Below, in pieces: positions 18,729-33,089 of a stretch of 33,089 bases of DNA. The notes beneath the pieces are model-generated. The model was not told where the DNA came from, ran no database searches, and saw only the letters and a list, made by a program, of their open reading frames with translations. The first letter of the stretch is position 1. Each line of letters opens with the position of its first letter. The position numbers were made by a program, and so were the translations under genes. This stretch comes from Planctomycetaceae bacterium. Its GTDB lineage: Bacteria; Planctomycetota; Planctomycetia; Pirellulales; UBA1268. The stretch covers positions 1 through 33,089 of the forward strand of contig CANFQO010000035.1 of assembly GCA_947449135.1 (NCBI GenBank), read 5' to 3'.

Positions 18729-21116
18729 ATGAGCGACAACCGCGAATTTGTCGAGGAATTTCTCGTCGAATCGGGCGAGTGCCTCGATCAGCTCGACCGC
18801 GACCTGATCGCGCTGGAGGAACACCCAGACGATCCACAGCGGCTGGCGAGCATTTTTCGCACGGTCCACACGATCAAGGGCAACAGCGGGTTCTTTGGCT
18901 TCTCCAAACTCGGTGCGCTGACGCATAGTGGTGAGCACCTGCTCGGCAAACTCCGGGACGGCAAGATCCGTCTCGACGATCGGGTTTCCGGGTCGCTTTA
19001 TTCCATGATCGATGCCGTGCGGTCGATTCTCCAGGCGATCGAGCAGACCGGTGTCGAGGGGGAGCAGGATTTCCGGGAACTCTCGCAGACCCTCACCGCC
19101 GTGGCTGCCCAAGACGCCGCGGAGGTGGAGTCGGAGTCGGAGCCAGTGGTAGTTCCAGAAGCGTCTGCCGTGACAGATCCGCTTCCGCCAGCGGCCACGC
19201 CACCCGCCCCGCAGCCATCCGCCCCAACTGCCGTCGCCCCCGCGAGCAGTATCGCGCCGGCGGTCGCACCAACGCCCGTTCCCACGCTGCCGATCGCAAC
19301 CGTGCCGAAGGCCTCCATTCCGGCCGTGGAATCGCCGAAGCCTGCCGCCCTGATGCCGTCATCGGAGACGTCCATCCGAGTCGACGTCGGACTGCTCGCC
19401 TCCATCCTCGATCTGGTAGGCGAACTCGTCCTCGCCCGCAACGAACTCCGCACCATCGAATCCACCAACCCCGCCCTTGAAGGCGTGATCCACCGGATCA
19501 ACACCGTCACCAACTCGCTGCAGGAAGCGGCGGTCAAGACACGGATGCAGCCGATCGAGCATGTCTTCAGCAAGTTTCCCCGGACCGTACGGGATCTGGC
19601 CGTCTCCTGCGGCCGGGAAGTTCAGCTCGTCATCGACGGTGCCGATACCGAACTCGACCGCACCCTGATCGAAAGCATTCGCGATCCACTCACCCATCTC
19701 GTGCGAAACGCCGTTGACCACGGCATTGAGCCGCCGGCTGAACGCGAGTCGAAGGGCAAGCCGCGTGCCGGGCGGCTCCTGCTGCGAGCCTTTCACGAGA
19801 GTGGACAGGTGACGATCGAGGTGAAGGACGACGGGGCTGGCATTCCCGTGGAGGCGGTGCGTGCCAAGGCCGTTGCCCGTGGGCTCGTCGATGCCGATAC
19901 CGCCGCCCTGCTCCCCGCCGACCGCGTGCTCCAGTTCATCTTTGAGCCCGGCTTCTCCACGGCCGCCCAGGTGACGAGCGTTTCGGGCCGTGGCGTCGGC
20001 ATGGACGTCGTGAAGACGAATATCGAGGCGATCGGCGGCACCGTCGACATCGCCAGCCAACCGGGCCTTGGCACGACAGTGCGGGTCCGCGTGCCGCTGA
20101 CGCTGGCCATCATCCCGGCGCTTGTCGTGCGGTGCGGATCAGAACGGTTCGCTCTCCCGCAGGCTGCTGTTGGCGAACTGGTCTCCCTGCGGACTGACGG
20201 CGGGCCACGAATTGAAGGCCTCGCCGGATCGGCTGTGATCCGGGTGCGTGGTCGCCTCGTGCCGGTGATCTTTCTGGACGAATTCCTGGGCTTGAGATCC
20301 ACCACTGCGGCCCGGGAGAACGGGACCGTCGTTCTCGTGCGGGTCGATGACCATGAGCTTGGGCTGGTCGTCGATGGCACACAGACCGGCAGCCTTCCCA
20401 CAGACGACGCCTCGCGGCAGCCAGGCACTTCCGTCATGATCACGGAGGCTGCCAGCCTCTCGACGATTGTCGTCAAGCCGATCGGCAGCCTGCTGGCACA
20501 ACTCGGCATCTATTCAGGCGCCACCGTGCTCGGCGATGGCGGCGTGGTGCTGATCCTTGACCTCCGCGGGATCCTGCGGGCCGCCGATCTGCCGGCCATT
20601 GAACGCCGCGTCGAATCAGTCGCGGAACAGACGATGGACGCCACGGACAGCTATCTCGTCTGCCGCACCGTCGCCGGTCGCCGGATCGCCGTGCCCATCG
20701 AACTTGTGGTACGTCTCGAAAAATTTGCCTCAGCGGACCTGCAGACAGCGGCTGGAAAACGCCTGGTGCGTCGGGGCGACGGCTACACTCCCGTGGTCGA
20801 TGCCGACAGCCTGCTCGGCGCGCCGTCAGCCCCCGTAGGGTCGGCCGGAGATGCGGACGACGGCACGATCAATCTGGTCGTGCTCGACGACCGCTGCGGC
20901 GGGATCGGTGTCGCGGTGCGGCAGATTCTCGATGTCGCAGCGGCGGAATCGATGCTGCAATCGACACTGGCTGCCGCTGGCGTGGCAGGCACGCTGGCCG
21001 TCGGCGGCCTCGCCACGGAAGTGCTTGATCTGACTGCACTGGCGGCAGCGCCCAAAACGCTCCCTGCCGTCGGTGGGTCCCACGCCTGGTATCCCTCCGC
21101 CGACTCCCTCTCGTGA
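18729..21116 (+). CDS. cheA: chemotaxis-type histidine kinase CheA, no P2 domain, two CheW-like domains
   Basis: 795 residues. Order of parts: HPt (1-105) with the phospho-accepting His47 in FRTVHTIKGNSGFF; a Pro/Ala-rich linker (about 130-212); dimerisation P3 (216-275); a HATPase_c domain (about 290-457) with N-box LTHLVRNAVDHGIEPP and G-boxes DDGAGIP and SGRGVGMDVV; a CheW-like regulatory domain (460-620); and a second, more diverged CheW-like domain (about 640-775, beginning SYLVCRTVAGRRIAVPI). No P2 response-regulator-binding domain is visible between HPt and P3. It autophosphorylates under receptor control and passes the phosphate to receivers. It is the first gene of the operon cheA-cheW-mcp-cheB-cheR, and its TGA overlaps the earliest start of cheW. 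Confidence 0.95.
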   Translation: MSDNREFVEEFLVESGECLDQLDRDLIALEEHPDDPQRLASIFRTVHTIKGNSGFFGFSKLGALTHSGEHLLGKLRDGKIRLDDRVSGSLYSMIDAVRSILQAIEQTGVEGEQDFRELSQTLTAVAAQDAAEVESESEPVVVPEASAVTDPLPPAATPPAPQPSAPTAVAPASSIAPAVAPTPVPTLPIATVPKASIPAVESPKPAALMPSSETSIRVDVGLLASILDLVGELVLARNELRTIESTNPALEGVIHRINTVTNSLQEAAVKTRMQPIEHVFSKFPRTVRDLAVSCGREVQLVIDGADTELDRTLIESIRDPLTHLVRNAVDHGIEPPAERESKGKPRAGRLLLRAFHESGQVTIEVKDDGAGIPVEAVRAKAVARGLVDADTAALLPADRVLQFIFEPGFSTAAQVTSVSGRGVGMDVVKTNIEAIGGTVDIASQPGLGTTVRVRVPLTLAIIPALVVRCGSERFALPQAAVGELVSLRTDGGPRIEGLAGSAVIRVRGRLVPVIFLDEFLGLRSTTAARENGTVVLVRVDDHELGLVVDGTQTGSLPTDDASRQPGTSVMITEAASLSTIVVKPIGSLLAQLGIYSGATVLGDGGVVLILDLRGILRAADLPAIERRVESVAEQTMDATDSYLVCRTVAGRRIAVPIELVVRLEKFASADLQTAAGKRLVRRGDGYTPVVDADSLLGAPSAPVGSAGDADDGTINLVVLDDRCGGIGVAVRQILDVAAAESMLQSTLAAAGVAGTLAVGGLATEVLDLTALAAAPKTLPAVGGSHAWYPSADSLS

Positions 21117-21127
21117 TCGCCCACGTC

Positions 21128-21619
21128 ATGGCCGACATCCAACGCGATACCCGCCACTGCTGTTTTCTCGTCGGTGGAGACTGCTTCGCCGTCTCGTCGA
21201 CGGGCGTGACGGAGGTGTTGCGTGACGGGAGAATCACCCGCGTGCCGCACGCGGCGGAGGCCGTGATCGGCCTCCTCCATCTCCGGGGCCGGATCGTGCC
21301 GGTGATTGACATGCGGCGACGGCTCGGTGTGATCGGCACGGCGTCGACTGCCAGCCGCACGCACCTCGTGATCCGCCTCCACGACGACTGGTACAGCCTG
21401 CTCGTCGACGAAATGCTCGATGTGATCGAGGTGGCGGAACATCAGATCGAACACCCATCCAAGCCATCCGCCGACACAGCAAACGATGCCGTCACCGGCG
21501 TATTCGCCGATGACGGCAGGCTCGTCTATTTTCTCGATCCGCAGCGGATCGTACAGCCACTAGCCCGACAGCGTGAGCAGTTTCTCCAACGACAGGGAGC
21601 CCCGCATGGCACCGTATGA
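21128..21619 (+). CDS. cheW: CheW coupling protein
   Basis: 163 residues from the ATG at 21128; a GTG at 21113 overlapping the cheA stop would add five residues. A single CheW domain is seen: strand [21 protein letters not shown], then the conserved block [22 protein letters not shown] and the second beta-barrel half [24 protein letters not shown]. It links CheA to the receptor in a signalling array. The C-terminal tail is slightly longer than the compact form. Its last 14 bases overlap the start of the receptor gene, implying coupled translation. Confidence 0.93.
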
Positions 21620-23777
21620 CATTGACTCCACGACCCTTGACGGCACACGGCGCGCGGCCGTTGGAGGCTGGCGTGCGCTGCTCAGCAACAGGCTGCTGCT
21701 GGCGCTGCTGGCCGTCTCGTTGATCCCGCTGGCATTGATGGGGATTGCCACCTATCGATCGGCGGCGAACGCGTTGACTGCCGAGGCGTTCGCAAAGCTG
21801 GAGACCGTCCGCACGATTACCGCCAAGTCTGTCGAACGCTATTTCCTGACGCTGCACAATGAAATTCGGGTGCTTTCCGAGGACCGCATGACGATCGATG
21901 CCTGCAAGCAATTCCAGGCCGCCTTCACCACCGTTCTTGCCGACAACACCGCCGACGACAAGGCGGTAGCCCGAGCCCGTCGGGAACTCGACTCGTATTA
22001 CGTCGGCGAATTTGCCACGGACTACCGGCAGCGATCTGGAAGCGATCCGGTGACCCAGCCATACGCCGAGGCTCTCGACGATACAGCCGCATACCTCCAG
22101 AACCTCTATATCCGCAACAACGAACACCCCATCGGCTCCAAGCTTCTGCTCGACGCGGCTGACGACCAGTCGGCCTACTCGAAGGTGCATGCGACCTTCC
22201 ACCCGCTGTTTCGTAGCATTCTCCAGAAATATGGCCTCGCCGACGTGTTTCTGATCGACGCCGAAACGGGCCGCATCCTGTATACGGTGCACAAGGAGCC
22301 CGACTTCGCCAACTCGCTCCGGACAGGTCCACTCGTGGGCACCAGCCTGTCGGCTGCCTTCCTCGAGGCAGTCGGCAGTGGTCGCCGGGATGCGGTGGCC
22401 TACGGGCCATTCGCCCGCTACTTCCCCTCCTGCATGCAGCCGGCCAGCTTCCTCGCAGTGCCGCTGTTCGACGGCCGACAATTGGTCGGTGTTGTCGCCT
22501 TCCAAATCCCGATCGATCGGGCCAACGAGATCATCGGCGAAACAACAGGCATGGGAACGACCGGTGAAACCTACGCCATCGGTCCCGACCGGATGTTTCG
22601 CAGCAACTCACGGTTTGCCAGTGAGCTGGGTGTCGCCACCACCATCATCGATCCAAAACTCAAGGTGAATACCGCGCCGGTCAAAAACGCCCTCGACGAG
22701 GGCGGGTCGGGAACAGCCCTCAATATCGACTACCGTAACAAGGCCGTGCTCTCCTCGTGGTGTCCGGTGACGATTCACCGGGACGAAGGTTCCGAACGGG
22801 GCACTGTTCGCTGGGCACTGATCTCTGAAATCGACGAGTCTGAGGTGATGGCCCCGATCCATCGGCTACGGAATTTCGCCCTCACCATCTTCGGCCTGAC
22901 GACAGCGGGCGTGCTGCTCGTGTCATCCGGCATCGCCCGCCGTCTCACGCGGGAATCAAACCGTCAGGCGGCCCTCGTCAGCGGCATCGTCGACAACACG
23001 CATGCGTTGGCCAGTTCCTCCGAAGAACTGACGAGCGTGAGCCAGCAGATGAGCGCGGCAGCGGAGGAGACCACGGCACAGGCAAACCTCGTCTCGGCCG
23101 CGGCGGAGCAGGTCAGCAGCAACGCCAGCACGGTGTCGGGATCGATCGAGAATCTCGTGTCGAGCATCCACGAAATCGCCAAGAGCGCTCAGGATGCCGC
23201 CTCGGTTGCGAAGCAGGCGGTCGATCTGGCGGGCACCGCATCGACAACGATGGACGCCCTTGGCCGTTCCAGCGCCGAGATCGGCAAGGTCGTGAAGGTG
23301 ATCACGTCGATCGCCGAGCAGACGAACCTCCTCGCCCTCAACGCCACGATCGAGGCCGCGCGGGCTGGGGAAGCCGGTCGTGGGTTCGCCGTGGTCGCCA
23401 ACGAGGTGAAGGATCTTGCCCGTGAAACCGCCCGTGCCACGGAGGACATCGGTGCCAAGATCGAGGCCATGCAGAGCGATACGCAGCGGGCCGTGTCGGA
23501 CATTGGCGGCATCCGCGACGTCATCGAGTCGATCGACGCGCTGCAGACGCGGATCGCGGCGGCCGTCGAGGAACAGTCGGTGACCACCAGCGAGATCAGC
23601 CGTAACATCGGCGAGGCGACCACGGGCTCGTCCGAAATCGCCGAAAACATCATGCAGGTGGCACAGGCCGCTCAGAGCACTGCCGAGGGAGCCTCCAATA
23701 CACAGGTTTCCTCACAGGAACTCTCCCGGATGGCGCAGGCGTTGCAGCGGCTGGTCGACGAATACCGGCGGTCCTGA
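21606..23777 (+). CDS. methyl-accepting chemotaxis-type receptor, dCache-like sensor, no HAMP domain
   Basis: 723 residues from the ATG at 21606, which has AGGGAG eight bases upstream. Transmembrane helix 1 is at about 29-48 and helix 2 near 430-450 ([21 protein letters not shown]). About 380 residues between them look like a double Cache sensor (including [20 protein letters not shown] and [15 protein letters not shown]). After helix 2 only ~10 residues ([10 protein letters not shown]) precede the signalling coiled coil. The two arms of that coiled coil, ~130 residues before and ~138 after the tip ([19 protein letters not shown]), are nearly equal, so no HAMP domain fits. The C-terminus (DEYRRS) lacks an NWETF-type CheR/CheB tether. 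It should detect a small periplasmic ligand and control CheA. Confidence 0.93.
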
Positions 23778-23833: not shown

Positions 23834-25279
23834 GTGCGTGCGCTGGTCGTCGATGACTCGAAGCCGAGCCGCAGCATCCTTGCGCGGGTGCTCCGCGATC
23901 TCAGGTTTGACTGTACTGAGGCAACCAATGGCCTCGAGGCGATCGCGGCACTCGCGACTCAGGGGCGGCCCGACCTGGTGACCATCAACTGGCACATGCC
24001 GGTGATGGACGGCATCGAACTGCTTCGCAAACTGCGAGCAAACCCGGCCCACCGCACCCTCAAGCTGCTGATGGTCTCCACCGAAAACGACAAGGACCAG
24101 ATCGCCACCGCGATCGCCGCGGGTGCCGATGATTTTCTGGCCAAGCCGTTCACCCCCGAGGCGCTCGCTCGCAAGCTCGTGAGTCTCGGCGTCTGCACAT
24201 CGGCCGAGGCGGCGGCAGCCGGCACACGCGGCCCGATCCGCGTGCTCGTCGTCGATGATTCGGCCACGATCCGCAACGTGCTCTCAGCCACCCTGGGAGC
24301 CGATCCCGATCTGAAGGTCGTTGGTACGGCCATCAACGGACAGGTAGCGCTGACGAGCATCGCCGCCAGTCCGCCCGATATCGTGCTGCTCGACGTCGAA
24401 ATGCCGGTGCTCGACGGGATCTCGACCCTGCGGGCGATTCGCCGTACACACCCAAAACTGCCGGTGCTGATGTTTTCGAGCCTCACCGAGCGAGGATCGC
24501 GGGCTACGCTCGACGCGTTGCTGGCGGGGGCCAACGACTATGCCGCCAAGCCCGCTGCCCAGACGCCCGAAGAGGTAGCTGCCCGCATCCGCGAAGAAGT
24601 GATCGTGAAGATCAAGCAACTGGTGCCCCGGGGTGGGCCGGCCGTGCGGTCGGCGGCCGCGGTCGTGGCCCGTCATCCAGCGACGGCCCGACGAGAACCG
24701 ATCCGGGGCGTCGTTATTGGGGTGTCGACCGGTGGACCGACGGCGCTTGCCGAGGTGCTTCCGGCATTCGCTGCCTCGGTCGGCGTGCCGGTGCTGATCG
24801 TGCAGCACATGCCGGCGTTCTTCACGGCCCAGCTGGCCGAGCGGCTTTCCAAGCTCTGTAACGCCAGCGTGCGAGAGGCTCAGGCCGGTCAGGAGATCCG
24901 TCCAGGCGACATTCTCCTCGCGCCGGGCGGCCGCCATCTCGAAATCGTCGGCGACGCGGGGACGACGCGTGCGCGGCTCACCGACGATCCGCCGGAAAAC
25001 TCCTGCCGACCAGCGGCGGATGTGCTGTTTCGATCCGCGGCACGGCTCTGGGGCGCCGGTACGCTCGGCGTGGTGCTCACCGGGATGGGCCGCGACGGCC
25101 TGCAGGGCTCGCGGATGATCGTCGAGGCCGGCGGAACGGTGATCGCACAGGATGAATTCACGAGCGTCGTCTGGGGGATGCCGGGGGAGATCGCCCGCGC
25201 CGGCCTGGCCGATGCCGTCCTGCCGCTGCAACAGATCGGCGTCGAGGTGGCCCTGCGACTGAAGCGGCGTGGCGGCTAA
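23834..25279 (+). CDS. cheB: REC-REC-CheB: receptor methylesterase with an added pseudo-receiver domain
   Basis: 481 residues, starting with GTG at 23834 and GGAGG eight bases upstream. Receiver 1 (1-120) keeps Asp7-Asp8 and Lys104 but has Asn52 where the phospho-acceptor Asp is expected (VTINWHMPVMDG; codon AAC at 23987-23989). Receiver 2 (about 134-255) is standard: Asp141-Asp142, phospho-acceptor Asp187 (LLDVEMPVLDG) and Lys239. The methylesterase domain (288-478) has the catalytic set Ser298 (GVSTGGP), His325 (QHMP) and Asp421 (GMGRDG). CheB removes methyl groups from receptor glutamates when its receiver is phosphorylated by CheA. The extra receiver cannot be phosphorylated in the normal way and may be a docking or allosteric module. 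Length is about 130 residues above the usual CheB. Confidence 0.93.
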   Translation: MRALVVDDSKPSRSILARVLRDLRFDCTEATNGLEAIAALATQGRPDLVTINWHMPVMDGIELLRKLRANPAHRTLKLLMVSTENDKDQIATAIAAGADDFLAKPFTPEALARKLVSLGVCTSAEAAAAGTRGPIRVLVVDDSATIRNVLSATLGADPDLKVVGTAINGQVALTSIAASPPDIVLLDVEMPVLDGISTLRAIRRTHPKLPVLMFSSLTERGSRATLDALLAGANDYAAKPAAQTPEEVAARIREEVIVKIKQLVPRGGPAVRSAAAVVARHPATARREPIRGVVIGVSTGGPTALAEVLPAFAASVGVPVLIVQHMPAFFTAQLAERLSKLCNASVREAQAGQEIRPGDILLAPGGRHLEIVGDAGTTRARLTDDPPENSCRPAADVLFRSAARLWGAGTLGVVLTGMGRDGLQGSRMIVEAGGTVIAQDEFTSVVWGMPGEIARAGLADAVLPLQQIGVEVALRLKRRGG

Positions 25280-25297: not shown

Positions 25298-26125
25298 ATG
25301 AAGGTCGGCACGCCACAGTTCACCTTTCTCTGCGAGCTGCTTCGCAAGAAAACCGGTGTCGTCATCGACATCTCGAAGGAATACCTCGTTGTGGCACGGC
25401 TGATGCCGATCGTCCGGCAGCGGGCAATCCCCAGCCTCGACACGCTCATCGATCGGATTCGCAAGGGAGTCGACCCGACGCTCGAACGTGACGTTCTCAG
25501 CGCGATGATGACCCACGAGACGTCGTTCTTCCGCGATAAGAGCCCGTTTGAAACGCTCCGTCAAAAGCTGCTTCCCGAACTGATTGAGCGGCGAGCCGTC
25601 CAGCGGCAGCTCACGATCTGGTCGGCCGCCTGCTCCACCGGCCAGGAGCCCTACAGCATTGCCATCCTGCTAAACGAGCACTTCCGCGACCTGCTCGGAT
25701 CGTGGCAGGTGCGGATTCTCGCCACCGACTTCTCCGAGACCGTGCTGACTCAGGCCCGCGAGGGGGTCTTCAACAATCTCGAGACAGCTCGGGGCATGCC
25801 TCCCGAGTTGCTCCAGAGGTATTTTCGGCCGCTGCAGGGAAAGTGGAGCATCTCGCAGGACTGCCGAAGGCTGGTGGAATTCCGCTCGCTTAATCTCAAC
25901 GCCACCTGGCCGATGATGCCCCCCTGCGACATCATTTTTCTTCGCAACGTGATGATCTATTTCGACGTCGCCACCCGTGCGGCACTGATCAAGAAGATGC
26001 GAACCGTCCTGCGGCCCGACGGAGCACTCTTCCTGGGTGGTGCGGAGTCACTGATCGGCACCGACACGGGCTACGACCGACTCGCCGGAGTGGGATGCAG
26101 CTACTACCGCCCGAAGCCGCACTAA
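25298..26125 (+). CDS. cheR: CheR-type chemoreceptor glutamate methyltransferase
   Basis: 275 residues, the family size, starting at the ATG at 25298 after GAGGA. The N-terminal helical domain (with LMPIVRQRAI) is followed by the conserved block THETSFFRDKSPFETL and the S-adenosylmethionine-binding Rossmann domain: WSAACSTGQEPYSIA, ILATDFSETVLTQAREG and CDIIFLRNVMIYFD. It methylates glutamates in the receptor signalling domain using S-adenosylmethionine, opposing CheB. No TPR or other C-terminal extension is present. It is the last gene of the operon and is convergent with the phosphatase gene. Confidence 0.94.
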   Translation: MKVGTPQFTFLCELLRKKTGVVIDISKEYLVVARLMPIVRQRAIPSLDTLIDRIRKGVDPTLERDVLSAMMTHETSFFRDKSPFETLRQKLLPELIERRAVQRQLTIWSAACSTGQEPYSIAILLNEHFRDLLGSWQVRILATDFSETVLTQAREGVFNNLETARGMPPELLQRYFRPLQGKWSISQDCRRLVEFRSLNLNATWPMMPPCDIIFLRNVMIYFDVATRAALIKKMRTVLRPDGALFLGGAESLIGTDTGYDRLAGVGCSYYRPKPH

Positions 26126-26335: not shown

Positions 26336-27778
26336 TTACGGCCGCCACTCAACGCCGAGGATCGAGACGTCATCGAGCGGGCCGATGGGCTGACACCAGT
26401 CCTCGACCCGTTGCAGCAACGCCTTCACGCTCTCATCGAGCGACTGCGACCGAGTGGCCGCCAGCACGCCGGCCAGCGCCTCGTCGCCGAGCTGCTGGCG
26501 ATCCTTGTCCATCGCCTCCGGCACGCCGTCTGAATAGAGGTAGATCCGATCGCCGGGAGACAATTGCAGCGAGTGCTGCTCGTAGTCCACGTCCGGCACG
26601 AAGGCGATCGGAAAGCCCTCCACAGGATGAAACTCTGGCGTTCCGCCGGCCGGCACCCGCACGAGCGCCGGATGGCCGCCCGACACGTAATCGAGCCTGC
26701 CAGTCGGCATGTGCAGCACGCCGTAGAGGATCGTGAAATAGAGGCCCGAGAATTCGTCCGCCTGAAAGAGCCGATTGAGCTGCGTGGCCACTTCCGCAGG
26801 CCGCGCGACCGCGATCCGGCCATCGGCCCCCTGCCGCACGAGCAGCGACTGGTCGGACACTTTCGGCGTCAGGAACCGGCCCACGGTTACCGCCATCAGC
26901 GACGAGGGCACTCCATGGCCGCTGACGTCGACGACGAACAGCCCCACATGCTCTTCGTCGAGCATAAAAATATTGAGGAAGTCGCCGGCGAGGCTGTGGC
27001 ACGGCACATACCTCCAGGCCACTTGCGTGGCTGGAATCGTCACGTCTTGAGCGGGCAGGAGCGACTGCTGCACCTTGGCCGCGGCCTCCAGATCGCGAAC
27101 CATCTGCGCATTGTTGCGGGAGATCTGCTCGTTGAGATCGGTCAGTTCGCTGTTGGTCCGCTGCAGGTTGTCGCGGGCCACGGAGAGATCCTGGTTGGCG
27201 ACGACCAGTTCCTGGTTCTTGGCAACGGCGTTTTCGAAGGTCGAGACGAGCAGGTTGAGCACCTGCTGACGGCCGGCTTTGACGCGAAACTGCTGCCCCG
27301 CGAGCGTCACCTCCAGCATGGCCGCCTCGGCCCCGGCGCTGTCTTCTTCGAGCGGCGAAGCGAGGAGCGACTGAATGCGGCCGAGCAGGAAGTCTGCCTC
27401 GTAGGGCTTGGTGACGTAATTGTCGGCGCCCGCATCGAGACCGCGGATGATGTCGATCGGGTCGGCCAGCGTCGACAGAAGAATGAACGGTAAGGTCTTG
27501 AGCGCGGGATCGGTCTTGACCGCCTTGCAGAACTCATACCCCGTCATCACCGGCATCTCGATGTCAGAGACGATGATGTCGGGCCGCCGCTCACGGACAA
27601 GCGCCAGCGCCTCAGCACCGGTCTCACCCCAGCGAACCGTATGCCCGGCCTCGGTGAGCCGACGCTGGAGCATCTTCGCCTGGATGCGGCTGTCCTCGGC
27701 GATCACCACGTCGACACCGCCACCGGCAGCGGCACTGCCGGCTGATGCTGTCGGCTGAGCCGAGGCGTCTGAGTTCAT
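26336..27778 (-). CDS. REC-SpoIIE/PP2C-type serine phosphatase (RsbU-like)
   Basis: 480 residues from the ATG at 27776-27778; a longer start at 27841 would overlap the preceding gene's end. An N-terminal receiver (about residues 20-145) has the acidic pair (AEDSR), phospho-acceptor Asp72 in SDIEMPVMTGYE and the conserved Lys in TKPYEADF. A coiled-coil linker (about 180-240) leads to a SpoIIE-type PP2C domain with LAGDFLNIF, DVSGHGVPSSL, VSGGHPALV, YSDGVPEA and DDVSILGVEW. The position after GDF reads LN rather than YD, a change I believe is common in this REC-linked subgroup. Such enzymes dephosphorylate STAS-domain antagonists; the candidate substrate is encoded 28 bases upstream on the same strand. 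The receiver could take phosphate from the convergent operon's CheA. Confidence 0.9.
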   Translation of the reverse strand: MNSDASAQPTASAGSAAAGGGVDVVIAEDSRIQAKMLQRRLTEAGHTVRWGETGAEALALVRERRPDIIVSDIEMPVMTGYEFCKAVKTDPALKTLPFILLSTLADPIDIIRGLDAGADNYVTKPYEADFLLGRIQSLLASPLEEDSAGAEAAMLEVTLAGQQFRVKAGRQQVLNLLVSTFENAVAKNQELVVANQDLSVARDNLQRTNSELTDLNEQISRNNAQMVRDLEAAAKVQQSLLPAQDVTIPATQVAWRYVPCHSLAGDFLNIFMLDEEHVGLFVVDVSGHGVPSSLMAVTVGRFLTPKVSDQSLLVRQGADGRIAVARPAEVATQLNRLFQADEFSGLYFTILYGVLHMPTGRLDYVSGGHPALVRVPAGGTPEFHPVEGFPIAFVPDVDYEQHSLQLSPGDRIYLYSDGVPEAMDKDRQQLGDEALAGVLAATRSQSLDESVKALLQRVEDWCQPIGPLDDVSILGVEWRP

Positions 27779-27806
27779 CGCGGTCTTTCCCGAGTGCGTG
27801 CGATGC

Positions 27807-28166
27807 TCAGGCTTCAAACGCTGCCAGGCCGGCAGGCGCATCGGGGAAGATCTTGAAGAGCTTGTCGAGGTTCGTGAGCTTGAAGACCTGGAAGATCTCG
27901 GGCCGGATGCCGCACATCTTCAGCCGCCCTTGGCCTTGGCTGATTTTGCGATGCAGCTGTCCAAGCAGGCCGAGCATGGCGCTCGACATGAACTCGACGT
28001 TGGCGAAATCGAGGAGCATGTCCGGCCCGGCTGCGTTGCCGATCAGCCGGTTGATCTCGGTCTTGATCTCATCGAGCACCGTGTCGTCGAGGATCTTCTT
28101 GTCCTTGAACAGCACGATGTGGATGTTGTCCTTCTTGCCGGTCTGGATACGACGGTACTGGTCCAT
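27807..28166 (-). CDS. STAS-domain anti-sigma factor antagonist-like protein
   Basis: 119 residues. The protein has the STAS pattern: an N-terminal strand (IHIVLFKDKKILDD), helix, strand LLDFANVEFMSSAMLG with candidate phospho-serines 61/62, then helices and a second strand (GRLKMCGIRPEIFQVF). In the partner-switch model the unphosphorylated protein binds and sequesters a serine kinase/anti-sigma factor, and a PP2C phosphatase reactivates it. The phosphatase gene follows directly, 28 bases away. No anti-sigma kinase (RsbW/BldN-type) is in the window, so the third partner must be elsewhere. Confidence 0.88.
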   Translation of the reverse strand: MDQYRRIQTGKKDNIHIVLFKDKKILDDTVLDEIKTEINRLIGNAAGPDMLLDFANVEFMSSAMLGLLGQLHRKISQGQGRLKMCGIRPEIFQVFKLTNLDKLFKIFPDAPAGLAAFEA

Positions 28167-29655: not shown

Positions 29656-32600
29656 CTACTTCCGCAGCACACCGATCCGCAGCGGCGGCAGGATGCCCGT
29701 CGAACCGGGCAGCGTCGACGACGTGCCGCCCGACGGGTCGGTGTTCTTCTTCACACCCCCTGTCTTGCCAAACTGTCCCTGCACGCTGTAGATCTCCGTC
29801 TCGCTGATCGCCGCGGTCCAGACGTCGGCCCGCTGGCCGCTTGCGCCACCGAAGGCCGCGAAGGACGCTGTCGGGATCTTGCTGATACCGCGGTAGGTCT
29901 CGACCTTCGAACCGCCGTTCACGCCCGCCGACACGAGGACACCCGCAGCGGCCCCGTTGACACCCGGTAGTGCCGCCACCGAGACGCCACCTGAGTATCC
30001 CTTGCCGATCGGCTTGACGGTGTTGACCACCACAGGGGGTGCCGACACGGCGTTGTAGCTCTTCACGGTGGCGGGGATCCCCGGACCACTGCCGACGATC
30101 ACCTCCGTGATCCCATCCGGGTCCGGCGACGTCCGCGTGCTGCCCGAGAAGGTGCCGATGTCGGCGGTAGCCACCGTCACGCCGCCGCGGAATGCCGGAC
30201 CGAAGGGCTGCATCTGCCGGATCGGCGTGCTGGAGATGCCACTGCCCGGCATCACGTCGAACACGCGGACGAGACTCGTCCCTCGCTGCTGGCCAGCGAC
30301 CAGCTGCGTTGTGCCGACGCCCGTCACGGCCCCGACCGCCACCTCGACACCGCCGGTATATCCCGATCCGAACGGGGACATGCGGTACTGAGGCAGTTCA
30401 ACGCCATTCTGCGTGAAGACCCGGACTTCACCGGGACGGCCCGGCCCCGGCGCGGTGATGATCTCGTCGATCCCGTCGCCGGTCATGTCGTAGCCGTAGA
30501 CATGCACACCACCGCGGAATCCAGGCTCGTAGGCGAAGAACTGCGTCAACGGCAGGCCCGTCACGGGATTGATGACCTGCACCAGCGGCGTGCTCGTGCA
30601 GCCAAGATCGGTGCCGAGAATCAACGCCGGCGAGAAGTTCGGCGTGTCGGTGTCGGTGGCCGAGTCAGTCGTACCGTCGGGAGCGTTCACGGTGGCGGTA
30701 TTGACCAGCGTCGTCGTAGCCGTGGAGAGCGTCTGAGCGATGACCGTGTAGGTGACCGTGCCACCCACGGCGAGGTCGATCGTCTCGTTGATCGAGCCGG
30801 TGCCGATCGTCTGCGCTGAGGAGTTGGAGCCAGTGAAGACCGCCGTCCAGGTGGAGGCGGCCACGTCGATCACCGTGGGATCGAGGACGTCGATCACTTT
30901 CGCTGACTGTGCAAAACTCACTCCTGAGTTCGTGACCACAATCGTGTAGGTCACCGACTGCCCAGGCTTGTAGATCGCCGTGCCGTCGGTCTTCGTGATC
31001 GTCATCGCCGTCACGGGCAGCGGCGTGCTGATCACCGTCGACGTGTTGTCATCAGGGTTCGGGTCTGGGAAACCAGCGGGGGCCGTCACCGTCGCGGTGT
31101 TCGTCAGCGGCGAGAGGGCGTTGGCCGCCACAGCGGCCGTGATCGTGAATGCCGCCGTGCCGCCGACCGGCAGGTCCGTCAGCACCGCATTGATATCGCC
31201 CGAACCGCTCGCCGGACCCGCGGCTCCTCCGGCATACGACACCGTCCACGTCACCCCGGAAAGCTCCGCCGGCAGCGTGTCGGCCACAGTGGTGTTCGTG
31301 ACGTTGCTTGGACCGAGGTTCGTGACGACGAGCGTATACGTGAGCGGACCGCCGGGCGTGAATGTCGCCGGACCGGCCTTCACGATCGTGAGGTCGGCGC
31401 CCGGTGGCGTAACGACACCGACGCTGTCCGCGGCCGCAAGCGGCAGGCGGGTCGTCGCCCCCGTGCCCGAGGCCGACGCGGAATTGCTGATCACGGTCGA
31501 ATCGGGCGTGAGGGCGTTGACCGTGACATCAAACGAGATCGTCACCGACCCGCCGCCAGCAATATTGCCGAGAAAGCCCGTCACACCGCCTCCCTGACTG
31601 CCTGTCAGGGAGCCCTGGCTGGACGAGAGGTTGCCTGCGTAGGTCGTGTTGGCCGGAATCTGGTCGTTGAAGAACACGTCCGCGGCGATGTCGGTCGGCA
31701 GCGTTGCCCCACTATTGTTTGTGACGACGATCGTGTAGCGGAGCGTGTCGCCATCCTGCACGAACCCGCCGTTCACATCGACGACCGTCTTCGTGAGGGC
31801 CAGTTTTGCGGCCAGCAAAACCGTGTCGGTATCGGTTGATGTGTTGTTCGCCGGCGTCGGATCGGTAGTACCGACCGGGGCCGTGACCGTGGCCGTGTTC
31901 ACGAGCGACGTCGTGGCGGTCGGGCTCGTCTCGGCGATGACCGTGTAGACGGCCGTACCACCCACGGCCAGGTCGATCACCTCGTTGATCGAACCGGTGC
32001 CTGCGGGATCGCCGACCGAGCCCGTGCCGGTGAACACAGCACTCCAGGCCGCCGCGGTGATCGTGGCCGGGAAGGCGTCGGCCACCCTTGCCCCGCGGAC
32101 GAAGCTCGGGCCGGCGTTGGTGACCGTGATCGTGTAGGTGACCGGCAGACCCGGCGTGTAGGTCGCGCTCGAATCGGTCTTCACGATCTGCAGGTCGGCC
32201 ACCGGGGCCACGCTGCTCCTGCCGGTCGAGGTGTTGTTGTCGGGGTTGGGGTCGGGGTCGCCGTCGGTCGGCTGGACCGTGGCGATGTTCGTCAGCACGC
32301 CGTTGAGCGTTGCGTCGGCCGTGGCTCGCACCGTGTAGGTAGCCCGACCGCCCTTCGGCACGGTGACGTTCGTATTCACGTTGCCCGAGCCCGATGCCGT
32401 GCCGCTCGCGCCGCCGGTAAACACAGCCGTCCAAGTGGCACCAGTCAGCCCGGCGGGCAGAACGTCTTCCACGAGGGCGTTCGTCGACGTACTCGGACCT
32501 GCGTTGGTCACCACGAGCGTGTAGGTGAGCGGTTGGCCCGGCGTGTAGGTGGCAGGGGCTGTCTTCACGATCGCGAGATCGGCACCGCCCGCCATCGAAA

Positions 32601-33089
32601 TCCCGACCGTGTCCGTAGCCTGAAGCGGCACGCCCGTGACCGAGGCGGTGGCCGTGACGAGGGCCGTGTTGATGATGGCCGAGCCGAGCGGCGTGCCGGC
32701 ATTCACCGTCACGTCGAAGGTCACGGTCGTCGACTGACCGGCAGCGAGCGTGCCCCCCACTGGCACGCCGGTGCCGGCTCCGGCTCCGGCGCCTAACTGG
32801 AAGTACACCGTGTTGAAGAAGCTGCTGTACTCAGCCTGATCGCGATCCACGGCGTCGGTCTTCGCGCCAGCATTGGCCCCGGCCGTGATCCGCAGCGTGC
32901 CGCGCTTGTAGGTGGTGTTGGCCGGGATCACGTCGCTGAGGATCACGTTCGTCGCCGCCTCGGCCGGCAGCGGCGTCGCCAGATTCGAGACGACGATCGT
33001 GTACCGCAGCGTGTCGCCACTCACGAGCACGCCGCCATTGAGATCCCGCACGGTCTTCACGACGGTGAGGTTCGCCGGATGGGTGACAG
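29656..33089 (-). CDS. large surface protein with duplicated DUF11 block and FG-GAP-like repeats, partial
   Basis: The frame is open at the window edge, so the true start and signal peptide lie beyond 33089; a GTG at 33058-33060 is only an internal codon (residue 1 of the counting used here). About 1,144 residues are visible. Six DUF11-like beta-sandwich domains occur: A1 (to ~155), B1 (158-284), C1 (287-413), A2 (417-550), B2 (553-680) and C2 (683-806). Then comes an FG-GAP/integrin-like beta-propeller region (about 812-1090) with DMTGDGIDEIITAPGPG and RGGVTVATADIGT, and a short Gly/Ser/Thr-rich tail. Such proteins are exported and form cell-surface or adhesin structures. The tail shows no LPXTG or PEP-CTERM signature. 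Stop TAG is at 29656-29658. Confidence 0.88.
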   Translation of the reverse strand, partial: VTHPANLTVVKTVRDLNGGVLVSGDTLRYTIVVSNLATPLPAEAATNVILSDVIPANTTYKRGTLRITAGANAGAKTDAVDRDQAEYSSFFNTVYFQLGAGAGAGTGVPVGGTLAAGQSTTVTFDVTVNAGTPLGSAIINTALVTATASVTGVPLQATDTVGISMAGGADLAIVKTAPATYTPGQPLTYTLVVTNAGPSTSTNALVEDVLPAGLTGATWTAVFTGGASGTASGSGNVNTNVTVPKGGRATYTVRATADATLNGVLTNIATVQPTDGDPDPNPDNNTSTGRSSVAPVADLQIVKTDSSATYTPGLPVTYTITVTNAGPSFVRGARVADAFPATITAAAWSAVFTGTGSVGDPAGTGSINEVIDLAVGGTAVYTVIAETSPTATTSLVNTATVTAPVGTTDPTPANNTSTDTDTVLLAAKLALTKTVVDVNGGFVQDGDTLRYTIVVTNNSGATLPTDIAADVFFNDQIPANTTYAGNLSSSQGSLTGSQGGGVTGFLGNIAGGGSVTISFDVTVNALTPDSTVISNSASASGTGATTRLPLAAADSVGVVTPPGADLTIVKAGPATFTPGGPLTYTLVVTNLGPSNVTNTTVADTLPAELSGVTWTVSYAGGAAGPASGSGDINAVLTDLPVGGTAAFTITAAVAANALSPLTNTATVTAPAGFPDPNPDDNTSTVISTPLPVTAMTITKTDGTAIYKPGQSVTYTIVVTNSGVSFAQSAKVIDVLDPTVIDVAASTWTAVFTGSNSSAQTIGTGSINETIDLAVGGTVTYTVIAQTLSTATTTLVNTATVNAPDGTTDSATDTDTPNFSPALILGTDLGCTSTPLVQVINPVTGLPLTQFFAYEPGFRGGVHVYGYDMTGDGIDEIITAPGPGRPGEVRVFTQNGVELPQYRMSPFGSGYTGGVEVAVGAVTGVGTTQLVAGQQRGTSLVRVFDVMPGSGISSTPIRQMQPFGPAFRGGVTVATADIGTFSGSTRTSPDPDGITEVIVGSGPGIPATVKSYNAVSAPPVVVNTVKPIGKGYSGGVSVAALPGVNGAAAGVLVSAGVNGGSKVETYRGISKIPTASFAAFGGASGQRADVWTAAISETEIYSVQGQFGKTGGVKKNTDPSGGTSSTLPGSTGILPPLRIGVLRK

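Follow-up and report, generated by a model that had tools for sequence, protein, structure and literature searches.

Is a receiver domain that has asparagine in place of its phospho-acceptor aspartate an accident of sequencing, a remnant on its way out, or a part that its pathway still uses? The question is raised by a cheB gene in the window, as we call the whole stretch of 33,089 nucleotides analyzed here (contig CANFQO010000035.1). The gene codes for two receivers in a row, REC1 and REC2, ahead of the methylesterase domain, and it is REC1 that has the asparagine. The host belongs to a family of uncultured planctomycetes in which no flagellar motor is detected and in which REC1 has nevertheless been preserved by evolution. 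The coordinates of the gene, its coding parts and its neighbors are given in Table 1; beyond them, at 29656-33060 on the minus strand, the window encodes a 1134-residue protein with repeated DUF11 domains.

Table 1. Chemotaxis cluster of the window, with adjoining genes, and the basis of each assignment.
Feature	Position	Strand	Basis
cheA: Hpt, dimerization, ATPase and CheW domains; no P2 domain recognized	18729..21116	+	Pfam
cheW	21113..21619	+	Pfam
Methyl-accepting chemotaxis protein	21573..23777	+	Pfam
cheB gene, REC1-REC2-CheB methylesterase, 481 aa, GTG start	23834..25279	+	Pfam and NCBIfam PRK00742
REC1, CheY-type receiver, captured, acceptor replaced	23834..24190	+	Nearest solved structures are CheY chains; operon place of the relatives' separate cheY
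AAC codon, Asn52, phospho-acceptor position	23987..23989	+	Translation; Asn in 58/60 family members
REC2, canonical CheB receiver with Asp187	24233..24565	+	Second PF00072 match; D187 invariant in 20-row alignment
CheB methylesterase domain	24710..25243	+	Pfam; S298, H325, D421 invariant in 20-row alignment
cheR methyltransferase	25298..26125	+	Pfam
REC-PP2C (SpoIIE-type) phosphatase, normal receiver Asp, proposed output	26336..27841	-	Pfam
STAS-domain protein, anti-sigma factor antagonist type; 35-base overlap with the REC-PP2C gene	27807..28166	-	Pfam and NCBIfam

The acceptor site and the conservation of REC1

By domain content and score, the gene product is a CheB methylesterase response regulator: a receiver is joined to a CheB_methylest domain (residues 293-470 of the 481-residue reading frame; PF01339, 206.7 bits), and the protein scores 449 bits against the NCBIfam model PRK00742, for which the cut-off is 293. 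Pfam finds two Response_reg matches in the frame, the best stretch covering residues 4-114, and REC1 reaches 90.5 bits against PF00072 (cut-off 30.2). We take S298, H325 and D421 to be the Ser-His-Asp catalytic triad known from the CheB literature, and with Asp187 retained in REC2, the methylesterase would be controlled through REC2 phosphorylation as in ordinary CheB. The initial annotation, made from the letters of the window, had described a first receiver with Asp7/8, Lys104 and an MPVMDG loop, in which the expected phospho-Asp is Asn52 (AAC), followed by a normal receiver. On re-reading the bases, all of this was found as described: Asn52 sits in the stretch DLVTINWHMPVMDG, where receivers have their phospho-acceptor Asp, and REC2 has Asp187 within LLDVEMP. 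REC1 is thus a PF00072 match without an acceptor Asp, and among the 26 receiver matches in the genome, most of the others having Asp, it is the only one with Asn at this site.

The same annotation had left room for a mutation or a read error, and the genome is a draft of 169 contigs. We therefore turn to the orthologs, for which 72 genomes of the window's family, the window included, were searched. A REC1 segment was obtained from 60 of them; the remaining 12 comprise incomplete genomes and some that apparently do not have the system, and one (G058) has a C-terminal piece only. When these REC-REC-CheB proteins are aligned, 58 of 60 have Asn at the acceptor site; the two exceptions are G016 with Asp (GAC) and G047 with Thr (ACG). 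The Asn codon is AAC in 40 genomes and AAT in 18, and the residue has thus been kept through synonymous changes. An asparagine found in 58 of 60 genomes and spelled with two codons excludes a sequencing error or a private mutation, to which we leave virtually no probability, and the reading of REC1 as a pseudo-receiver fixed in the family is, judging from these sequences, well supported. Nor did a near-identical ortholog with Asp turn up. The sole Asp-bearing ortholog, G016, is 62-63% identical and groups with two Asn-bearing genomes in the CheB tree, and being nested among them, its Asp is a probable reversion, with an assembly error as the alternative. G016 (L140/L225) keeps the family-specific Thr50, His54 and Ser82, which makes it a natural revertant useful for experimental tests.

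REC1 is under purifying selection, which, together with the fixed Asn, sustains the designation as a pseudo-receiver. We estimated dN/dS by a simple counting method for 78 pairs of family members with REC1 identities of 80% or more; the medians are 0.12 (REC1), 0.09 (REC2) and 0.11 (catalytic domain). The pocket around the lost acceptor is preserved, with D7 in 60/60, D8 in 58/60 (Glu in the other two), K104 in 60/60, S82 in 59/60 and an aromatic residue at 101 in 60/60. On the tree, for which the 55 of 60 family rows with enough CheB were used, a REC1 site changes 8.0 times on average, compared with no change at D7, T50 and K104, one at S82, two at N52 and D8, and seven at position 54. A decaying CheY remnant without function might be suspected from the loss of the acceptor and, it seems, of the target too, but this is very improbable for a domain whose dN/dS is close to those of REC2 and the catalytic domain, whose pocket residues change 0-2 times against a mean of 8 per site, and which is retained in all 59 family loci that could be tested for the fusion.

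Preservation of the pocket goes together with a partial remodeling. T50 is present in 60/60 family members (relatives have Leu, Met, Val or Ile), position 54, two residues after the acceptor, has shifted from Asn (25/26 relatives) to His or Gln (His in 52/60), and position 82 from Thr (25/26 relatives) to Ser (59/60); C27 is found in 59/60, and Asn52 is followed by Trp, Leu or Arg. Residues 50, 54 and 82 set the family apart from its relatives, and the old phosphorylation pocket could now bind another ligand or a metal through Thr50, Asn52, His54 and Ser82 beside Asp7, Asp8 and Lys104. The high counts at these positions and at C27 would suit such a site. However, seven changes at position 54 are loose for a catalytic or metal-binding residue, and we consider such a putative site rather unlikely. 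Another way to give the pocket a purpose is to treat Asn52 as a latent acceptor, which would be deamidated to Asp, spontaneously or enzymatically, and so activate REC1 as a timer or an irreversible switch. The remaining phosphorylation machinery (the acidic pair, Ser, Lys and the aromatic switch residue) is intact, and one lineage, G016, has returned to Asp genetically. Peptide chemistry speaks on the other side, as Trp, Leu or Arg after Asn slows spontaneous deamidation, and the D+2 position has changed from Asn to His or Gln. A receiver with Asn at the acceptor has been reported to revert to Asp, according to the parts of Maule (2015; PMC4395418) available to us. Our literature search for CheY D57N with deamidation found no paper, and we regard the switch as improbable. 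For the reversion, Maule cites Wolanin 2003, on CheY.

The faces of the domain differ in how they have fared. Mean entropy over beta1-alpha1 is 0.45 in family REC1 vs 1.17 in Asp-type CheY at similar diversity, and the relation is turned around over beta5 (1.50 vs 0.53). Glu, Met and Lys at positions 100, 103 and 114, which do not vary among the 26 relatives, are drifting in the family. A permutation contrast between output face and kinase face is marginal (p = 0.048), the residue lists for the two faces being based in part on general knowledge of CheY complexes. We take these patterns to suggest that the old motor-facing output face was released, while the pocket and the alpha1 face were retained.

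Capture of a neighboring cheY and the apparent lack of a flagellar switch

Where did the additional receiver come from? In relatives from the same order, cheB codes for an ordinary REC-CheB protein, and a separate cheY-like gene lies directly upstream in 18 of the 20 loci examined, the two without an adjacent CheY being L109 and L118. The gene order cheA-cheW-mcp-cheY-cheB-cheR of most relatives corresponds to cheA-cheW-mcp-[REC1-CheB]-cheR in the family. All 26 separate CheY proteins in our alignment have Asp at the acceptor site; 18 come from the order, and the other eight, from other phyla, were hand-picked for strong matches and also entered the REC1 tree and the entropy comparison. Upstream receivers that match less well or are more distant, at L151, L160, L166, L170, L174, L178 and L192, likewise have Asp; these seven loci are not part of the alignment. 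Since a separate, Asp-bearing cheY occupies the same place in relatives, REC1 is a captured cheY. Its identity to the CheY of flagellated order relatives is 36-44%, family REC1 forms one clade (support 93, in a tree built on few columns) whose nearest neighbors by tree distance are the CheYs adjacent to cheB, and family CheB also forms one clade (support 97). Synteny and tree distance thus agree on descent from the cheY beside cheB. A free-standing, Asp-bearing protein that acts on FliM is not what is found here: REC1 is fused, it has Asn, and the family has no full FliM. REC1 is built on a CheY frame without being a CheY.

REC1 and CheB are fused in one frame in 59/59 testable family loci and in none of the loci compared from outside the family. 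Our searches beyond the family used strict E-values (1e-85 and 1e-90), and the scan of named genomes covered 80 of 384 relatives, so more distant fusions could be missed; every full-length match that was returned (three from the order search, three from the phylum search) has a stop between REC1 and REC2. L147 and L158 had been considered as independent CheY-CheB fusions, and a frame check shows that neither is fused. Synteny and sequence establish the in-frame fusion to cheB and the replacement of Asp, and the simplest account would be a single fusion and a single Asp-to-Asn change before the family diversified. This origin from a captured cheY, like the apparent absence of the flagellar switch to which we now turn, is an addition to the initial annotation.

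The classical target of CheY is FliM. Only one of the 72 family genomes has FliM above the cut-off, and there the match spans 52 positions at the end of a contig; this genome is 73% complete. No family genome passes for the FliMN_C domain (0/72) or has flagellin (Flagellin_N) above the cut-off (0/72). Among 35 relatives searched, FliM is matched in 32 and lies above the cut-off in 31, including all 18 order relatives with an adjacent Asp-bearing CheY. FliM absence and an Asn-bearing REC1 go together by lineage, in what amounts to a single event for the family, and their coincidence is no statistical test. Within the limits of the family models and of incomplete genomes, the usual target of CheY thus appears to have been lost, as the family has no full FliM, FliN-type domain or flagellin. 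The available text of Andrei (2019; PMC6461901) reports flagella in only some freshwater planctomycete lineages.

Loss of the entire flagellar export apparatus is ruled out by an FlhA-like protein (FHIPEP) in 65/72 family genomes. The window's own genome has an FlhA/SctV-family protein on another contig (C20, L237:10356-13763), scoring 621 bits for FHIPEP and 597 against an FlhA cut-off of 772; its gene adjoins a FliA/WhiG sigma factor, and the genome has no FliM, FliMN_C or flagellin match. Could this be a lone export gate kept after the flagellum was lost? One family member, G062, stands apart from the others with an FlhA of 881 bits and a piece of FliM (contigs C272 and C326), which are probably contamination of the bin.

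A proposed docking arm on CheB and a probable new output

The initial annotation had proposed docking, dimerization or fixed-state regulation as uses for a pseudo-receiver. All three are plausible proposals, and the conservation pattern would favor docking through the alpha1/pocket face. We suggest the following course of events. A cheY just upstream of cheB was fused to it in frame in the family ancestor, and its Asp was replaced by Asn. REC1 would have been retained for the continued binding of a partner by its alpha1/pocket face. The likeliest partners are the CheA Hpt domain and the receptor array; CheB would thereby be tethered and phosphate directed to REC2, which would regulate the methylesterase as in ordinary CheB. 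The output of the pathway would have moved to a neighboring REC-PP2C phosphatase and its STAS partner. Our confidence in this account as a whole, in which a captured CheY is now a non-phosphorylatable docking or coupling arm of CheB, is about equal to our doubt, and its steps differ in strength. Asn cannot be converted to the usual acyl phosphate. On these chemical grounds we consider it very likely that REC1 is deaf to phosphate from CheA. The face conserved in REC1 is the one that meets the phosphorylated histidine domain in histidine kinase complexes, and docking to CheA or the array, with phosphate left to REC2, is therefore favored; that REC1 binds CheA Hpt or the array in this way, tethers CheB and directs phosphate to REC2 is a suggestion that we make tentatively.

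We had also considered that REC1 replaces a P2 domain lost from CheA in the family. No P2 match is found in three further family CheA proteins or in the window CheA, but six CheA proteins of relatives have no recognizable P2 either, so REC1 fills no gap peculiar to the family.

A different use of the extra domain would be within CheB itself. As in PleD, REC1 might serve as an intramolecular adaptor, with phosphorylated REC2 packing on it or two REC1 domains pairing, which would dimerize CheB or free its active site. The linker between REC1 and REC2 is short, at about 15 residues, which speaks for such a role, and the available parts of Bourret (2025; PMC12632262) give PleD as an example of a REC-PsR-effector architecture with such a mechanism. 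The AlphaFold2 model of the window protein has good receiver folds and a pTM of 0.61, and domain contacts are not readable from it. A fold search, in which domains are aligned one at a time, ranks CheB at the top, with CheY as the match of a single receiver, and a sequence search against solved structures returns CheY chains for REC1. PleD chains match at a TM of about 0.24 with an rmsd of 15-17 over two domains, so PleD-like packing is not reproduced in this model, and beta5, a part of the usual alpha4-beta5-alpha5 pairing face, has lost its conservation in the family. An adaptor of this kind is possible though unlikely, and we return to docking as the preferred function: REC1 is probably a non-phosphorylatable docking or coupling part.

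If the motor is gone, where does the signal go? Downstream sequence of 3.6 kb or more is available for 21 family loci. A convergent REC-PP2C gene lies beside the cluster in at least 18 of them by script (19 by gene-order listing, the script's distance limit having missed L221 although the gene is present), and a STAS gene in 18; neither is found beside the cluster in any of 16 relatives. L218 and L127 are family loci with enough flank in which the REC-PP2C gene is absent. The receiver of REC-PP2C keeps its Asp in 27/27 family rows with a true match, duplicate loci included. From this conserved adjacency we lean, by a small measure, toward the output having moved to the phosphatase and its STAS partner, with CheA presumably feeding phosphate to the REC-PP2C receiver. 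Elsewhere in the window's genome (contig C64:14087-14926; L010, L012), a receiver adjoins a frame whose N-terminal receiver resembles that of the window REC-PP2C. A more far-reaching scheme has the remodeled pocket (Thr50, Asn52, His54 and Ser82, with the metal-binding acids and Lys kept) sense a ligand, a metal or the deamidation of Asn instead of CheA phosphate and feed adaptation through CheB, in arrays that steer gene expression via REC-PP2C and STAS with no motor involved; we think this unlikely.

Whichever function is right, the family offers a series with a clear direction: the parent has Asp and sits at its original place in the operon, the fused descendant has Asn and is kept family-wide, and there are also a natural Asp revertant and a Thr variant. 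The pocket is nearly intact in all of them. The series also points to a way in which motor loss may reshape a chemotaxis operon, with CheY retired into CheB and a phosphatase/STAS pair moving in alongside.

Comparison with known systems

Our literature searches for CheB with two receiver domains in Planctomycetes, for tandem receiver domains with CheB, and for pseudo-receiver, asparagine, phosphoacceptor and response regulator combined returned no paper, and in the available main text of Maule (2015; PMC4395418) and Bourret (2025; PMC12632262), CheB is not mentioned. Three papers that contain both CheB and the word pseudo-receiver seem unrelated, judging from their titles. The solved CheB structures 1A2O and 6YMZ align with REC2 and the methylesterase over their full length; they have one receiver, and the window protein has an extra one in front. 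The window's genome also encodes a second CheB, downstream of a CheA-type frame that ends in a receiver (contig C34, L096:4081-5466). The receiver of this second CheB has Asn-Asp for its acidic pair and no clear conserved Lys, and we presume it to be somewhat like WspF.

The closest counterparts of REC1 are the CheY proteins of flagellated order relatives, which share its operon position and its pocket save for the acceptor and a few sites, but are encoded by a separate gene, have Asp and a conserved beta5 face, and occur in genomes with FliM. PleD (REC-pseudoREC-GGDEF), like the window CheB, is a response regulator that pairs a normal receiver with a pseudo-receiver; in the window protein, however, the order is reversed, with the pseudo-receiver first, the output is another one, and the model, from which domain contacts are not readable, shows no PleD-like packing. 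An Asn at the acceptor is in itself ordinary, since it makes up 16% of acceptor substitutions in the survey of aspartate-less receivers (ALRs), as given in the available text of Maule (2015; PMC4395418). As described there, RitR likewise has a receiver fold with Asn (Asn53) at the phospho-acceptor position, but it has also lost Lys10 and Asp81 (RitR numbering) and is a DNA-binding regulator, whereas REC1 keeps the acidic pair, the Ser and the Lys, and its protein has a methylesterase as output and a second, normal receiver. The pseudo-receivers surveyed by Bourret (2025; PMC12632262) are, like REC1, without a residue needed for phosphotransfer. In the parts of that survey available to us, the second residue of the acidic pair is non-acidic in about 80% of cases, and only 47% of pseudo-receivers keep both coupling residues; in REC1, by comparison, position 8 is acidic in 60/60, the Ser is present in 59/60 and the aromatic residue in 60/60. 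What is unusual in REC1 is the completeness of the remaining pocket and not the Asn itself.
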